From assembly GCA_028276145.1 (NCBI GenBank), contig JAPYWX010000003.1:1-34832 (forward strand): a DNA stretch of 34,832 bases, in the 5' to 3' direction. This stretch comes from Spirochaetota bacterium (lineage in GTDB: Bacteria > Spirochaetota > Brevinematia > DTOW01). The translations under genes and the position numbers were made by a program. Positions 1,363 through 33,964 of the stretch are shown in pieces; position 1 is the stretch's first letter, and every line of letters begins with the position of its first letter. The notes below the pieces were generated by a model. That model did no database searches. It saw nothing but the letters and a program-made list of their open reading frames with translations, and was not told where the DNA came from.

Positions 1363-1370
1363 TCAATAAA

Positions 1371-1432
1371 GTGCTTAAAGCACAAAGTGCTTAAAGCACG
1401 AGTGCTATTTAGCACGAGGTGCTATGAAGCAC
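1371..1432. repeat. GTGCT..AGCAC palindrome array x4
   Basis: GTGCTTAAAGCAC 1371-1383 and 1387-1399; GTGCTATTTAGCAC 1402-1415; GTGCTATGAAGCAC 1419-1432. Confidence 0.95.
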
Positions 1433-1528
1433 CTCATTTTTATCGTAGAGATTCATAGTATCTCTGCACTATTAAAAAGTGAAGACAGGCAATACAAAAT
1501 TAAGCAGTCTACAGGATTCAAAAATTGA

Positions 1529-1573
1529 GTGTTTTAAACACTGAGTGTTTTAAACACATAGTGTTTAAAACAC
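1529..1573. repeat. GTGTTTTAAACAC palindrome array x3, 16 bp period
   Basis: 1529-1541, 1545-1557, 1561-1573 with spacers TGA and ATA. Confidence 0.95.
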
Positions 1574-1662
1574 TGAGTATGTAAAAATTACACAGCTACG
1601 AGATAACATCTCTTTACCGTGAAGGAAAAGTTTTTTCAACAGAATTCAATAATAAAGCAAAA

Positions 1663-3410: not shown

Positions 3411-3434
3411 TAAGGGATGCTAACGCATCCCTTA
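3411..3434. repeat. Perfect hairpin, 10 bp stem and 4 nt loop, in divergent trxB/BFN intergenic region
   Basis: TAAGGGATGC-TAAC-GCATCCCTTA. Confidence 0.85.
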
Positions 3435-3524
3435 GAAGGAAAATTTTTAAGCATAATTCTACTCAGCATATGTAAGGAAAAATATTTGACTAGAGTATTT
3501 TCATTTGTTTATCTTTAAAAGGGA

Positions 3525-7596: not shown

Positions 7597-7641
7597 AACA
7601 GGCTTAGCCTGAACAGGCTTAGCCTGAACAGGCTTGGCCTG
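7597..7641. repeat. AACAGGCTTAGCCTG tandem x3, 15 bp period
   Basis: CAGGCTTAGCCTG at 7599 and 7614, CAGGCTTGGCCTG at 7629, separated by AA. Confidence 0.95.
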
Positions 7642-7680: not shown

Positions 7681-7749
7681 GTGCTACTAAGCACAACGTG
7701 CTATGAAGCACTCCACCCTCTAATTGATGTAGAGAGGCAAAGCCTCTCT
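7681..7749. repeat. Two GTGCT palindromes (17 bp period) followed by AGAGAGGC hairpin
   Basis: GTGCTACTAAGCAC 7681-7694, GTGCTATGAAGCAC 7698-7711, AGAGAGGC-AAA-GCCTCTCT 7731-7749. Confidence 0.93.
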
Positions 7750-7960
7750 ATACTCTACAATGTTTAATAAGGAATTGCCGTTAGGACCCTACGAAGTACT
7801 TTCAAGTATTTATAAGAAGGTGCTATTAAGCACCATACTTACTTTTATTGCAAATATGCGTATCATCCTCTGATGTCTAGCATCTCCATGCTTAGAAGGT
7901 TTGCCAAAAAAATATCCCGGCAACACAGAATACAAGAAATTTAACAATTTAAAGAACCAA

Positions 7961-8026
7961 GTGTTTAAAACACTCGGTGTTTAAAACAAAACACTTTGTG
8001 TTTAAAACACTTTGTGTTTAAAACAA
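7961..8026. repeat. GTGTTTAAAACAC palindrome array x4 (two degenerate)
   Basis: Units begin at 7961, 7977, 7998, 8014; array ends 6 bp from the amidase stop codon. Confidence 0.9.
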
Positions 8027-9238: not shown

Positions 9239-9320
9239 AACTAAGATTATAAACTACTAAGTAAAACAATATAAAATTTCCTGGAATAGGGGGGCTACCG
9301 CCTCCCCTAAAACCTTAAAT

Positions 9321-12908: not shown

Positions 12909-13231
12909 ATTATAACAATTTTAACATTAACTAATCAAAAACTATGAAAATAAAATAAATACTACTTAAATTGTATAATTTTAGCTTTGAAGAAAACCCG
13001 AATTCCTCCCAAATTCACTAAGCTAAACAACAATTCAAACTTCTTACCTCTTCTTTTTAGTGCTACAACACTTATTCCTTCAAACACTTTAGACTACACG
13101 AATAAAAATGCACTATGAGCACAATGCACTTCAAAGCACAACACGCTACTAAGTACTAAATAATGACTCTTTCTCTACTTCTTAGAACGCCTGAAGTAAT
13201 ATTAAAAAGGCTATCAACTTTAAAACTCTAA

Positions 13232-13249
13232 GGGAGGCTATCGCCTCCC
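13232..13249. repeat. GGGAGGC-TATC-GCCTCCC hairpin
   Basis: Perfect 7 bp stem, 4 nt loop. Confidence 0.85.
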
Positions 13250-13294
13250 CTAACTCTATAAGTATCATCAAAAATCAAGTTTTACTAACAAAAA

Positions 13295-13355
13295 GTGTTA
13301 TAAACACAGTGTGTTATAAACACTTTGTGTTATAAACACTCTGTGTTATAAACAC
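13295..13355. repeat. GTGTTATAAACAC x4, exact 16 bp period
   Basis: Starts 13295, 13311, 13327, 13343; spacers AGT, TTT, TCT; ends 5 bp before the adjacent stop codon at 13361. Confidence 0.97.
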
Positions 13356-15377: not shown

Positions 15378-15731
15378 CAAAAAGTATTATTTAGCACACT
15401 ATTTTAAGTAGTCCCATTTACTTCTTTAATCGTAGAAAGCTTTGACCTCTTCTCACTCTCCATCTCCAAAGCATGAAAAGAGTTTATTAACTTAACAGTT
15501 AAGTGCTACTAGCACGCTACTATTAGTAATCCCCATCACCCACCCTATTTAATTGTCAAGAGTTTTCACCTCTCAACACTCCTCTACCGAAACATGAAAA
15601 TAAAAGAAGTGCAATCTAGAACCCATCCACTCTGCTTTATTGCTGTAAACGAGTTTTCCAACACCTTTTACTTATCAAAAAGGCTATTAAGCAAATGAGC
15701 TTTAAGGTACTTAGAACACTAAATAAAAGAG

Positions 15732-15835
15732 GTGCTTTAAGCACAGGTACTACATAGCACAAGTGCTACACAACACAAGTGCCACATAGCACAGGTATTT
15801 AGAAAATATAATTTTTCGGGAGGCGGAGCCTCCCG
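15732..15835. repeat. GTGCT-type array x4 followed by CGGGAGGC-GGA-GCCTCCCG hairpin
   Basis: Units at 15732, 15747, 15763, 15779; hairpin 15817-15835, 15 bp from the nrdJ stop. Confidence 0.9.
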
Positions 15836-15850
15836 GTAGAAAATCAATAT

Positions 15851-19174: not shown

Positions 19175-20032
19175 CTAGAATCTTTCAAAGAACAAGGTCA
19201 GTGAGGCATAAGTCGCTTTGTCAGTTGAGTAGATTCTAAAAATTGTTTCTATATCCCTTGATTTCATATCATCAGTAAAGAACTTAATAAAATAAAGTCC
19301 TAACCCTGCCCCAAGCTTGTCTTCTTCAAAAGACTCCTCTGAAAAGCCATCAACTATAGTAGTTATATCAGCTGTAGCTTTCTCCCTAAGTAACTTAGCT
19401 TGTTCAGGAGTCAATAGTGTATTGTTTGAAACCTCAACTTTGAATATCTCCTTTGAAAACTTCCACGAAATGGTTACCCACTTGTCTCGTATAACACAAA
19501 GATGAGCTATCTCTTTTCTGTGTTTTGTAACAAATTCAACTTGACTCAGAGGAGTATCTAATTTCTCAGATTCAATAACATTTGTAAAGTTAGCCTTCTC
19601 AGCATTATCAACAAGCTCCATTATAACATTATTAATATGCACAATATCAGTTTTACCTATAAAATCAAGAATTCTATTCGTTATGTACTCTATCAAAACT
19701 CTCTGGTCGTGTGGAGCATACAATTTAAGACTTATACCCTTTGTATAAATCAAAAGCTTTTCTAAGTCTAAAAGAGTCTTTAATGCCTTCTCAGATAGAT
19801 TTATATAAAGATTCGGCAAATTTGAAGGGTCATACTGCCCCCTCTTATCAGGGGGCAGTATATTGTTAAATTTTATAAAACCTAGCTTATTGAGAACAAT
19901 GCTCAGCGTGTCCTTAGGTGTACAAAGTTTCAGCGCTCTAATCAAATCCTCTTCACTAACCCTACTCAACTCCATTAGGTTATCATAAATGAAATAAGCT
20001 CCAACATCAACAATTTTAGAACTTAACTTCAA
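19175..20032 (-). CDS. Orphan GHKL/HATPase_c-type ATP-binding protein
   Basis: N-box-like INNVIMELVDNAEKAN and G-box-like DKLGAGLGLYFIKFF; no histidine-containing DHp domain visible; apparent TTG start. Confidence 0.75.
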   Translation of the reverse strand: MKLSSKIVDVGAYFIYDNLMELSRVSEEDLIRALKLCTPKDTLSIVLNKLGFIKFNNILPPDKRGQYDPSNLPNLYINLSEKALKTLLDLEKLLIYTKGISLKLYAPHDQRVLIEYITNRILDFIGKTDIVHINNVIMELVDNAEKANFTNVIESEKLDTPLSQVEFVTKHRKEIAHLCVIRDKWVTISWKFSKEIFKVEVSNNTLLTPEQAKLLREKATADITTIVDGFSEESFEEDKLGAGLGLYFIKFFTDDMKSRDIETIFRIYSTDKATYASLTLFFERF

Positions 20033-21839
20033 TACCTCCCCAAATCCACCTTCTAGGCATCTTCACTTTGTTTACATCCTCATACTCAACATCCCCCAAG
20101 TTCTCACCCTCAACAAATAGCTTAACACCTGAAAGCAATTCATAGGAAACTTTAGCATTTATCAAAGTGTATGTCGTGTATGGTAGCAAATTACCATTCG
20201 CATCCTTCCCTTCAAATCTATTCCTAAAGCTTACAAGAGTATAAATACCAAAACCATATAGGTTTTGATAAACAACTAAATTAGCTTGATGCTCTAGATA
20301 CTTATCATACCTGAATGTGTAATTATCAGGTACCCCAGAATCAAACTTCGAGTATGAATAGAATACCTTAAGTAAGCCACCCTCAAGGAAGTTATGACTA
20401 AAATTCAACCCAACTTCAACACCACCACCACTAATCCACCTTATATTTTGTGCCTCAAACCTTAATCCAGGAATAGATTTATCATCAGCAAAATCTATAA
20501 CATTCAAAGCATCTCTCCAGTACCCAGAAACAAACAAATAAGAACTCTGTTCTTCATTAAGGAAGTAAAATAGATTTAGCTCATAATTCCATCCTTCTTC
20601 GGGCTTTAGGTTAGTGTTACCGAATGCTATGCCATCATAATAGTAAAGTTCAATATAGGTAGGTACTCTAAAGAACCTTGAAGCACTACCTGAGACTTTG
20701 ATAGAGTCTATTATGTAATAGTATCCTTTCAAGGAAGGTGACGGAACAACACCATAAACTCTATCACCCAAATACCAAATATCATTTCTTAGCCCAATAG
20801 AAAGAGAAGACTTATCAATAGGTGAAAAGCCATATTCAAATACAACTCCAAAAGGTACATCGTACCTGTTACCAAGTAAATTTGTCTCACCGTTTGTCGT
20901 ATAAGCTTTACTGTCAATAATGTTACCTCTCCCCTCAGCTCTCACAAACAACGAACCATAGTTACCAAAATCAAACGTGTTCTCAACACTCAAAACAGAT
21001 TGATACTTAACATGATTGTTTGTCTGAGTAGTAGGAGATGAAATATTGACAATATAGTTATCTATAGCACTCTTTGCAAGTAGGTTAACCTTGAATTTGC
21101 CAAAACCAAAACTAGCAATCCCTAATGTACCTACTTCACTTTCCCTAGCTTCAGTACCATAAAATAAGCTAGCACCATACTTCTTTTCAATATGTCCAAC
21201 AAATAAAACAAATTCTCCACCAAACAACTTCGAGACAAAAGTCGTATTCAAAATCCACTCATCAAAATCAGTGTTAAACTTCCATCCATCGCTTGTTTTC
21301 TTATCAAACGAAAACCTAAAACCAAGTACACCAAACCCCTTAGAAACCGAAAAAGTACTTCCAAAAAGCCCATAACCACCAACATAACTCCTTATATTAA
21401 CACCTTCAACAATCTCTTTCGATATATCAAAATTAATAACCCCTCCAATAGCATCACTACCATAAATAGTCGAATTACCTGACTTCTGAATAGAAACAGA
21501 ATCAATATCATAAACAGTAAAAGGCAAAGACAAATTCAAATGCCCCGTCTGAATATCATTGAAAGAAACACCACTCAAAGCGAAAGAAACCTGACTAAAC
21601 CTGCTACCCCTAATACTTACATCACTCTGAATATCAAAAGGAGCTCTATTCTGTAAATAAATACCGCTAGCCTCAAGCAAAGACCTAAAAGACACATAAT
21701 TATTGACATTCGTTAGTACCTCAACCACCGAGTACCCTTCACTAACCCTAGTATCAACAACATACTCCTCTAACTCAGTCCCAAAAGTAAAAGCATTCGC
21801 CACTAAAACCAAAAATAAACTTGCTAATAATCTTCTCAT
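20016..21839 (-). CDS. TonB-dependent outer-membrane receptor
   Basis: Plug-like LLEASGIYLQNRAPFDIQSDVSIRGSRFSQVSFALSGVSFNDIQTGHLNLSLPFTVYDIDSVSIQKSGNSTIYGSDAIGGVINF; C-terminal beta-barrel ending in aromatic F. Start reassigned from 21908 to ATG 21839 (MRRLLASLFLVLVANAFTFG signal, preceded by GGAGGT). Confidence 0.9.
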   Translation of the reverse strand: MRRLLASLFLVLVANAFTFGTELEEYVVDTRVSEGYSVVEVLTNVNNYVSFRSLLEASGIYLQNRAPFDIQSDVSIRGSRFSQVSFALSGVSFNDIQTGHLNLSLPFTVYDIDSVSIQKSGNSTIYGSDAIGGVINFDISKEIVEGVNIRSYVGGYGLFGSTFSVSKGFGVLGFRFSFDKKTSDGWKFNTDFDEWILNTTFVSKLFGGEFVLFVGHIEKKYGASLFYGTEARESEVGTLGIASFGFGKFKVNLLAKSAIDNYIVNISSPTTQTNNHVKYQSVLSVENTFDFGNYGSLFVRAEGRGNIIDSKAYTTNGETNLLGNRYDVPFGVVFEYGFSPIDKSSLSIGLRNDIWYLGDRVYGVVPSPSLKGYYYIIDSIKVSGSASRFFRVPTYIELYYYDGIAFGNTNLKPEEGWNYELNLFYFLNEEQSSYLFVSGYWRDALNVIDFADDKSIPGLRFEAQNIRWISGGGVEVGLNFSHNFLEGGLLKVFYSYSKFDSGVPDNYTFRYDKYLEHQANLVVYQNLYGFGIYTLVSFRNRFEGKDANGNLLPYTTYTLINAKVSYELLSGVKLFVEGENLGDVEYEDVNKVKMPRRWIWGGIEVKF

Positions 21840-21864
21840 ACCTCCCTCCTTCAACAAAAAGAAT

Positions 21865-21899
21865 ATTAGTAAACTTCTTTGTTTTTCAAGTTTACTAAT
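21865..21899 (-). promoter_or_regulatory. 12 bp perfect inverted repeat upstream of the TonB-receptor RBS
   Basis: ATTAGTAAACTT - 11 nt - AAGTTTACTAAT. Confidence 0.6.
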
Positions 21900-21910
21900 G
21901 TAAAGCATCA

Positions 21911-22239
21911 GTGCTTCATAGCACTAGTGCTTCACAGCACTTTTTTATCAACCATTGAGAATTGCAGAGAGCCGGAAACCTCTTGACATCAAACATAACA
22001 AGATTCTTATTGTTCTTAATTACTTTGTTCCAATAGCATATTGTGCTTATAACAAATTTTTGACAAAAAACGGGTTAATCGGGAGGCTAAACATCTATAT
22101 TAGATGGGTTAAAGTGCTTCGTAGCACTTTGTGCTTAGTAGCACTTTCTTAATGTTTTGGAGAGTGAAGAGGGGCGAAGCTTCTTTTCAAATAATTAGGA
22201 CGTGCGGAGTGCTTATTAGTACCTAGTGCTTACTAGCAC
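21911..22239. repeat. Three GTGCTT..AGCAC doublets (16 or 17 bp period)
   Basis: 21911/21927, 22114/22131, 22209/22226. Confidence 0.9.
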
Positions 22240-22718: not shown

Positions 22719-22772
22719 ATAAAATTCATCTCTTTCAATAAGATTTGATTGTATAACTCTCTCCTATTAAGA

Positions 22773-22817
22773 GTGCTTAAAGCACATAGTGCTTAAAGCA
22801 CGTAGTGCTTAAAGCAC
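22773..22817. repeat. GTGCTTAAAGCAC x3, exact 16 bp period
   Basis: 22773-22785, 22789-22801, 22805-22817; spacers ATA, GTA. Confidence 0.97.
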
Positions 22818-23046
22818 AGTGTACCAGACTTGTTCCTAATAACACTTTTTACTAAACACTGGTGAGTGAAGAGAGGCTTTGTAACTCTAAAATAATTAGG
22901 ATGGGTAAGGGTGCTTATAACATCCTTAATTGAGTACTTAATAGCATTTTCTCAGTTATTCTAGAAAACGTGGAGAGGTGAAACCTCTTCATATTAAATT
23001 TGAATCTAAAAAAACACTCTTTTATATTTGCTTCAAGGAGGAGTGT

Positions 23047-28943: not shown

Positions 28944-29166
28944 AATTTAACCTCCAAAGAGTATAGACTATTATAATCACATATTCAACAAGAATATGTC
29001 AAATTTTTAGATTGTGTTGGAAATAGGCTAGCACATTGCTATTAGATGTTTCACCTCTCTTTACCCTCAAACACCTTTCACTTACCAAAGAACACAAGTG
29101 CTATTAACACTCAAGAAGGTGTATTTAGCACTTTACTTTTAGTAGCCCCCAATCTATTTGATTGTT

Positions 29167-29290
29167 GAGAGGTTTCACCTCTCTTCATTCTTCAATGTGT
29201 AATAAGAATGTGTTACTAAGCACAACGTGCTATGAAGCACGACGTACTATGAAGAACAAAGTGCTATGAAGCACAAAGTGCTATAAGCAC
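29167..29290. repeat. GAGAGGT-TTC-ACCTCTC hairpin plus five palindromes in exact 17 bp register
   Basis: Hairpin 29167-29183; units start 29210, 29227, 29244, 29261, 29278; array ends 4 bp before the miaB stop. Confidence 0.96.
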
Positions 29291-29294
29291 ACAG

Positions 29295-30587
29295 CTATGA
29301 ATTTATTATTTCTCCTATTAGAGTACTACCGCTAAGTTCTTTAATTCTGACACTAACGAACTTACCTATCAAATTTTCTTTTGATTCTACGGCTACCATC
29401 TTATTGTACGTAGTCCTACCAATATACTGATTCTCGTATTTACCTACATCCTCTACCAGTATTTCAAAAGTTTTTCCTACATCTTTCAGGTTACTTTCGC
29501 GGCTTATTGAATGCTGAAGATTTATTAATCTCTGTATTCTCTCAGTTTTAATCTCTTCGGGCACTTGTTCTGGCATTGAAGCGGCAGGAGTTCCTTCCCT
29601 AGGGTTAAAGACAAACATGTATGAAAAATCAAACCTAACTTCTTCAACAAGCTTCAATGTCATCTCAAAATCTTCTTCAGTTTCCGAAGGGAAACCAACT
29701 ATTATATCTGTTGAGATTGCAGCATCAGGCATTCTGCTCCGTATGTAATTTATCATGTCAACATAGTACTCATAAGTGTAACCTCTCTTCATAAGCTTGA
29801 GTATCCTATTAGAGCCACTCTGAACAGGCAGATGGAAATACCTACACAACTTATCCAATTCAGATATTGTATCAATCAAATCTCTCCTAAAGTTAACAGG
29901 ATGAGAAGTCAAAAACCTTATTCTTCTAAGCCCTTCTATCTTATTAACCTCTTTTAGTAGTTCTTTGAACGAAGTACCTATATCCCTACCGTAAGAATTC
30001 ACATTCTGCCCCAAAAGCAACACCTCAACAACCCCATTATCAACAAGCCTTTTTATATCGTCAATTATATCCTTCATTGGCCTACTTACTTCCCTACCTC
30101 TAGTCTTAGGAACAATACAGTAGGTACAAGCATGATTACAACCATGTATTATTGTGACAGAAGCCTTAAAAGGGTAAACATAATCAATCGTTGAAGGCAA
30201 AAACTCATACCTATCCATCCTTATATCTACAACCTGGTTTTGGCCACTCATTATTGCTTCAAGCATCTTACTTCTACTGTATGTCCCAAAAACACCACTT
30301 ATATGCTGAGCCTCCTTCAATAGCCTCTCTCCCCAGTTCTGAGCCATACACCCAGTAACAAAAATCCTAAGATTCGGCTTTTTCTTCTTTAGCCCTTTGA
30401 GATAACCAAGCCTACCAAATACCCTTTCCTCAGCCGTATTCCTAACACTACAAGTGTTTATGATTATAACATCAGCATCTTCCTCGTTATCTGTGTAATT
30501 AAGCCCAGAAGACTGTAACAAAGTCCTAAGCTCAAAAGAATCAGACATATTCATCTGACATCCATAAGTCTCTATGAAAAATTTCAT
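29295..30587 (-). CDS. miaB: tRNA-2-methylthio-N6-dimethylallyladenosine synthase
   Basis: FIETYGCQMNMSDS; IHGCNHACTYCIVPKTRGREVSRP radical SAM CxxxCxxC; LLGQNVNSYG; FHLPVQSGSNRILKLMKRGY; C-terminal TRAM. Confidence 0.95.
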   Translation of the reverse strand: MKFFIETYGCQMNMSDSFELRTLLQSSGLNYTDNEEDADVIIINTCSVRNTAEERVFGRLGYLKGLKKKKPNLRIFVTGCMAQNWGERLLKEAQHISGVFGTYSRSKMLEAIMSGQNQVVDIRMDRYEFLPSTIDYVYPFKASVTIIHGCNHACTYCIVPKTRGREVSRPMKDIIDDIKRLVDNGVVEVLLLGQNVNSYGRDIGTSFKELLKEVNKIEGLRRIRFLTSHPVNFRRDLIDTISELDKLCRYFHLPVQSGSNRILKLMKRGYTYEYYVDMINYIRSRMPDAAISTDIIVGFPSETEEDFEMTLKLVEEVRFDFSYMFVFNPREGTPAASMPEQVPEEIKTERIQRLINLQHSISRESNLKDVGKTFEILVEDVGKYENQYIGRTTYNKMVAVESKENLIGKFVSVRIKELSGSTLIGEIINS

Positions 30588-30724
30588 ACCTTCACCAGAA
30601 ACATTATAAAAATACTATATAAATTGTAGAGATTTTTCTAATAATAAATCAAATTAGCAACAGGCTAGACCTATTACTTACAGGTTAAACCCAGCTTCTA
30701 TAAAAAAGAATTTCATATTCATCG

Positions 30725-30745
30725 CAGAGAGGCGTAGCCTCTCTG
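30725..30745. repeat. CAGAGAGGC-GTA-GCCTCTCTG hairpin
   Basis: Perfect 9 bp stem, 3 nt loop. Confidence 0.9.
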
Positions 30746-30773
30746 TACTCTTATAAAAATAATTTAATAATCC

Positions 30774-33846: not shown

Positions 33847-33964
33847 ATTAGTATTAAACACTAGAGAGTAAAGAGAGACGAAGTCTCTCTTCAAACAATT
33901 AGGGTGGAAGAGTGAGGCCACTAGAAGTAATGTTCTAATTCATAATCAAGTGCTAAAAGCACTT
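33847..33964. repeat. Dispersed core repeat (reverse orientation) with AGAGAGAC hairpin, plus AAGTGCT-AAA-AGCACTT palindrome
   Basis: AAGAGAGAC-GAA-GTCTCTCTT 33871-33891; AAGTGCTAAAAGCACTT 33948-33964, 8 bp from the ispD stop. Confidence 0.85.

Follow-up and report, generated by a model that had tools for sequence, protein, structure and literature searches.

A palindrome array beside miaB as one module of a high-copy intergenic hairpin mosaic in a Spirochaetota genome

The array beside miaB and the composite element

The window, i.e. the whole stretch of DNA analysed, has 34,832 nucleotides and is contig C32 of a genome bin of 1.57 Mb (1,573 kb), which is in 202 contigs, 82.7% complete and unclosed. 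The bin has two FlaA genes, FlaA being typical of spirochaete periplasmic flagella; a search for a 16S rRNA gene gave no match in this 82.7% complete bin. The miaB gene (NCBIfam TIGR01574) is on the minus strand at 29295-30587, and thus the five short palindromes that adjoin it lie on its 3' side. Relatives of this MiaB found in a search of genome contigs match at only 37-47% and are spread over many phyla, with no close organism among them.

The original prediction described five palindromes of 13-14 bp in an exact 17 bp register, ending at the miaB stop, with AAC, GAC, AAA and AAA between them. Unit positions (Table 1) are exact to the base, and the spacers are as claimed, each 3 nt. The array does adjoin the gene, but the last unit ends at 29290, 4 bp past the stop. 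The 17 bp register holds locally; genome-wide it is 15, 16 or 17 bp (31, 62 and 63 unit-start spacings, respectively, in a 503-kb sample). The variation comes from loops of 3 or 4 nt and spacers of 2 or 3 nt.

What is the unit of this repeat system? The first reading described the array. It was right that the feature is recurrent, not CRISPR and unlike any named family tested, but it was incomplete, as the array belongs to a larger, polar composite whose central stem-loop covaries strongly. Alignment of flanks places a C-rich tract, a stem-loop of 10-11 bp and a linker, in this order, between two palindrome arrays, with a consensus on the C-rich strand of GTGCTATTTAGCAC-ATTACTTTTAGTAGTCCCACCCNCCCACCCTAATTTATT-GTAGAGAGGC-TTC-GCCTCTCTAC-ACTCTCTAAATTATTAAGAAA-(GTGCTATTAAGCAC-AAN)n. 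The miaB array is the right-hand module of such a composite core and no stand-alone feature. The core beside it consists, in order, of a palindrome end, TTACTTTTAGTAG, the C-rich tract, the stem-loop, the linker and the array start.

Cores were located by a profile search; a flank-only stem scan at permissive thresholds yielded mostly noise and was discarded. At E<0.01 the profile matches 214 places in 935 kb but none in the reversed sequence, and the 214 reduce to 209 non-redundant cores, none centred in a called gene. A covariance model of the core finds at least 137 places in this genome among the best 150 candidates scored. The palindrome/3-nt-spacer architecture recurs at many further loci in the window, as had been predicted (Table 1).

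Table 1. Palindrome units, arrays and composite cores in the window
Feature	Position	Strand	Remarks
Palindrome unit 1, GTGTT-ACTA-AGCAC	29210..29223		one arm mismatch (GTGTT/AGCAC)
Palindrome unit 2, GTGCT-ATGA-AGCAC	29227..29240		perfect arms
Palindrome unit 3, GTACT-ATGA-AGAAC	29244..29257		one arm mismatch (GTACT/AGAAC)
Palindrome unit 4, GTGCT-ATGA-AGCAC	29261..29274		perfect arms
Palindrome unit 5, GTGCT-ATA-AGCAC	29278..29290		perfect arms; 4 bp from miaB stop
Composite core beside miaB array	29127..29213	+ (C-rich strand)	nhmmer E=4.2e-15; covariance-model match 29146-29200, E=4.7e-9
Central stem-loop GAGAGGT-TTC-ACCTCTC	29167..29183		strongly covarying module
Small hairpin TACT-TTT-AGTA within core	29134..29144		sequence; without covariation support
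Degenerate second composite copy, same intergenic region, upstream	29044..29107	+	69% identity, weak E=0.044
Composite core copy, palindromes 7681-7711	7711..7778	+	profile search
Composite core copy	15393..15473	+	profile search
Composite core copy, same direction as neighbour 15393..15473	15510..15592	+	profile search
Composite core copy, palindromes 22114-22144	22140..22215	-	profile search
Composite core copy, array 22772-22818	22842..22916	-	profile search
Partial composite core copy	22944..23000	-	profile search
Stem-only match; may be isolated terminator-like hairpin	30717..30752	+	profile search
Composite core copy, compensated stem GAGAGAC-TTC-GTCTCTC	33853..33936	-	profile search and covariance model
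Palindrome array, 13-14 bp units	1370..1432		palindrome scan
GTGTT/AACAC variant array, compensated arms, period 16	1526..1586		palindrome scan
GTGTT/AACAC variant array	7961..8025		palindrome scan
GTGTT/AACAC variant array, period 16	13287..13355		palindrome scan
Degenerate palindrome array	15740..15797		palindrome scan
Two-unit palindrome array, 5' side of minus-strand gene 20016-21908	21910..21941		palindrome scan

Several smaller points of anatomy can be added. The two-unit array at 21909-21941 is directly before the predicted start of gene 20016-21908, at the expected ribosome-binding site, and this start may be misplaced. The opposite strand of the C-rich tract is GGGTGGGAGGGTGGG, a four-tract quadruplex motif (e.g. 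L133 4716-4829); 21 of the 25 quadruplex motifs in 935 kb are within cores, and all four tracts are present in only 20 of the 214 core matches. The longest intergenic regions, e.g. L138 3700-4750 and L128 5870-6790, are strings of composite modules. These two loci have a 191-bp block in common (L138 3949-4140 and L128 6427-6617, 91% identity), in which alternative stems GTTGGGATGC/GCATCCCAAC and GTTGGAAAGC/GCTTTCCAAC replace the GAGAGG stem.

Abundance and genomic location

The motif GTGCTN4AGCAC, with up to 2 mismatches, is found 28 times in the window vs 7.8±2.7 times in shuffles, which is far above chance. There are 599 exact copies in the 1.57 Mb genome and 0 of the reversed-pattern control, and tandem pairs in the 17-bp register number 154. 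The commonest gap from one 5-bp hairpin to the next is 3 nt, with 224 vs 13 in one shuffle (503-kb sample).

Most genome-wide figures cover 935 kb of the 1,573 kb. Here 605 perfect units are present, the search definition requiring a complementary partner arm; arms are GTGCT in 511, GTGTT in 57, GTGCC in 22 and GTGTC in 15. There is a pronounced intergenic bias, as 585 of the 605 are outside called genes and 20 are inside them, with genes called by a simple codon-usage script made for this analysis. Units occur in about 55-76% of intergenic regions >200 bp and in 2% of those of 40-100 bp. Together, core and palindrome units account for 2.6% of the sampled genome and ~20% of its non-coding DNA. 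Convergent, co-directional and divergent intergenic regions have similar densities, but close to gene starts (within 40 bp) units are depleted (12 vs 32).

Covariation, polarity and spread

Paired arms vary in step, so that hairpin shape is kept as the letters drift. In 28 aligned copies of the central stem, 47 cells are double-changed vs 15.6±3.2 in shuffles (partner slid, 4-10). All 209 copies give 285 double-changed Watson-Crick cells vs 104±7 shuffled, and one copy per intergenic region gives 186 vs 62±6. The shuffles ignore the relatedness of copies, but the slid controls preserve it, and these have no excess of double changes. The array arms behave similarly in part. With units picked by register and similarity, not by palindromy, compensated doubles number 13 at pair 4 and 23 at pair 5, the two pairs next to the loop, vs ~3 expected; covariation in the outer three pairs is not clearly over expectation, and within the arm the second pair, T-A, is conserved best. 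Compensated arms are of the GTGTT/AACAC, GTGCC/GGCAC and GTGTC/GACAC types. The small hairpin within the core has 6 double changes vs 3.3 expected.

Loops have a direction. On the C-rich strand, 4-nt loops relative to their inverse are ATTA 24:0, ATGA 14:1 and ATTT 8:0, and loop polarity matches that of the nearest core by 224 to 5. Arrays and core thus constitute one directional element. Interstrand template switching would leave inverted loops, and of these there are hardly any among oriented 4-nt loops.

Position is not wholly neutral, as there are leanings with gene direction and replication as well as the depletion near starts. The G-rich strand is more often the leading strand (100 vs 61 intergenic regions, p=0.003) and, in co-directional gaps, the gene-sense strand (44 vs 20 intergenic regions, p=0.004). 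Replication drives the GC skew at third codon positions (r=0.82 between the two strands' genes on a contig). Lagging-strand genes, as a test of transcription against replication as the cause of the polarity, offer only 14 informative intergenic regions, which divide 8 to 6.

How did the copies spread? Adjacent units have the same loop in 43% of cases vs 6% for random pairs, and neighbouring cores have the same direction in 76 of 80. There are 64 pairs of intergenic regions with common blocks of at least 80 bp at 85% identity or more, the longest being 273 bp; blocks start and stop at different modules, and element ends vary. Same-loop neighbours, co-oriented cores and common blocks fit local duplication plus block copying.

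The family appears confined to a narrow lineage, being known so far from this one uncultured bacterium. Among 394 further genomes of the phylum (4 of the same family, 14 of the same class), none has a tandem pair. A DNA search with the core gives nothing in 60 relatives, nor does the covariance model in 20 relatives (best 150 candidates per genome scored), and phage, plasmid and viral-contig searches are empty. Gene pairs conserved with same-family genomes are nearly all tight operon pairs (gaps <100 bp) without elements, and they yield no empty sites. The material is a single genome bin, 82.7% complete, with no sister strain for an insertion or empty-site comparison.

Known repeat systems and possible mechanisms

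The spacers of 2-3 nt set the arrays apart from CRISPR, which requires unique spacers of ~25-45 bp. As predicted, no named repeat family fits among those tested: Rfam 15, at the gathering score in the window plus 8 rich contigs, gives tRNAs only, and the REP hallmarks are absent. No description of the family turned up in Rfam, phages, plasmids, viral contigs, relatives or open-access papers, but this is no proof that it is unpublished. The repeat is best read as a lineage-specific interspersed hairpin mosaic of the BOX/BIME/RHE kind, nearest in design to BOX and organellar RHE.

We know of no polar composite core of the present kind in RHE. RHE of sponge and fungal mitochondria are likewise short hairpins that invade the intergenic DNA of one lineage and are absent from relatives, and their multi-hairpin blocks are copied as units (PMC2800124). 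They are in organelle genomes, however, and the present case shows that bacterial genomes, too, can undergo an extreme hairpin expansion like that of organelles. The Streptococcus BOX element (boxA-boxBn-boxC) is also composite, intergenic, hairpin-forming, high-copy and lineage-restricted, with a variable-number tandem sub-module plus fixed modules (PMC3049150). The tandem sub-module here is only 13-17 bp, is on both sides of the core, where that of BOX is in the middle, and has compensated arms; and density in convergent gaps is not raised, whereas BOX is over-represented there (PMC3049150). This comparison is one of described design.

Other likenesses are more distant. REP, BIME and REPIN sequences are short extragenic palindromes, high-copy and clustered (PMC3733652, PMC3116915), but the unpaired terminal GTAG tag of REP/REPIN is absent here; GTAG is within the stem and varies to GAAG, GTTG and GCAG, its second base pair being T-A in 65 and A-T in 61, and no Y1 (RAYT) transposase is found in the 83%-complete bin. 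Borrelia plasmid intergenic stem-loops, probably of the same phylum, are repeated and intergenic and have compensatory changes. They have some nine to eleven copies for each sequence type, are on plasmids, with some tied to particular genes, and are without palindrome arrays of the present kind (PMC2674063). The LIMP palindromes of Lobosphaera mitochondria are palindromic, internally repetitive and lineage-specific, but each is a single long hairpin of pentanucleotide repeats, in 19 copies, compared with the strings of short separate hairpins here; the LIMP loop is in both orientations and the present loops have one polarity (PMC4524435).

The array probably belongs, as one module, to a high-copy family, restricted to a species or genus, of polar hairpin mosaics between genes, which are amplified and kept palindromic at the DNA level. 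We infer a mechanism of growth, copying and palindromy along the following lines. Local tandem duplication (replication slippage) would lengthen and shorten palindrome arrays, and multi-hairpin blocks might be copied from locus to locus by a conversion-like or other mobilising process. Palindromy could be kept in DNA if a hairpin in one strand templates correction of the other arm, i.e. by intrastrand template switching, which would leave loop orientation intact; such switching has been reported to make compensatory changes with the loop kept (PMC8794818). Or the element-copying process may favour hairpin-forming DNA, or selection may act on DNA hairpins. A locus-specific regulatory role would be unnecessary, and transcript-end effects would be side effects. 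Selection for function would yield the same covariation. Do palindromes that drift with pairing kept reflect structural selection, or mutation by arm-to-arm copying? With several hundred dispersed copies, oriented loops and many array lengths, the two causes could be separated quantitatively given a second strain.

Could the copies instead be non-autonomous transposable elements, MITE or REPIN-like, mobilised by a hairpin-recognising transposase? High copy number, dispersal, polarity, hairpins and blocks common to several loci would all be accounted for. MITEs, however, have fixed ends, terminal inverted repeats and target-site duplications, and the common blocks here have variable module boundaries. 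In the 83%-complete bin, no Y1 transposase (PF01797) is detected at E<=0.001 and no reverse transcriptase is found; at this completeness the enzyme could be missing and the absence of Y1 is not final. One intact DDE transposase is present (L097 472-1413), and its inverted ends, GAGRGTGTTCCAAAA, are unrelated to the palindromes, this being the one DDE family tested. Such an origin is possible but on the whole improbable. A more speculative and likewise improbable idea is that a trans-acting activity, e.g. a hairpin-recognising nuclease, a recombinase or a polymerase-linked process, but not Y1 or reverse transcriptase, spreads the mosaics and keeps them palindromic; if so, the mosaics would represent a new class of mobile non-coding element.

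It is unlikely that the hairpins work chiefly as RNA, ending or stabilising transcripts as REP/BIME or intrinsic terminators do. Strong stem covariation would fit, as would the 44 to 20 lean of polarity towards gene direction between co-directional genes and the T-rich side on the sense strand (78 vs 39), an intrinsic terminator being at 3' ends with a U tract. But density is equal in divergent gaps, where no transcript should end, and both orientations are common. The minus strand folds as RNA better than shuffles (z=-4.4), but for that stretch folded as DNA the score is no less extreme (z=-5.2). Transcribed-strand mismatches are G-U in 55 vs A-C in 38 (p=0.10), and so there is no clear wobble asymmetry and no strong RNA-level signature. 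Similar density across gap types and the weak G-U bias favour the DNA-level explanation. The GAGGC hairpins that stand alone near stops are probably genuine terminators, in a different context from the arrays. Isolated hairpins of the GGGAGGC or GGGATGC type, at 3413-3435, 9288-9310, 13231-13253 and 15817-15836, look like ordinary terminators, and some have arms in common with the composite stem.

Tandem operators bound by a protein dimer, whether of the nucleoid or regulatory, would explain two-fold symmetric sites of 13-14 bp in arrays, as well as the conserved second pair T-A. Length varies between 13 and 14 bp, however, and register between 15 and 17 bp, so that half-site geometry is not fixed; compensated arm changes are predicted by base pairing and not by half-site recognition, and loop polarity is conserved. 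Operators are thus very improbable. An assembly or binning artefact, or chance, is hardly credible: the bin is fragmented (202 contigs) and units are enriched at contig ends (16.3% vs 8.9% of bases) as is to be expected of repeats at which an assembly breaks (such arrays do break short-read assemblies), but there are 599 exact motifs vs 0 in the reversed control, units are on 73 of the 86 contigs of at least 5 kb, and loops and arms diverge between copies.

Tandem hairpins of the same kind with different arms are also seen in the window: CAGGC-N-GCCTG arrays are present at 1294-1362 and 7597-7641, with periods of 22 and 15 bp.
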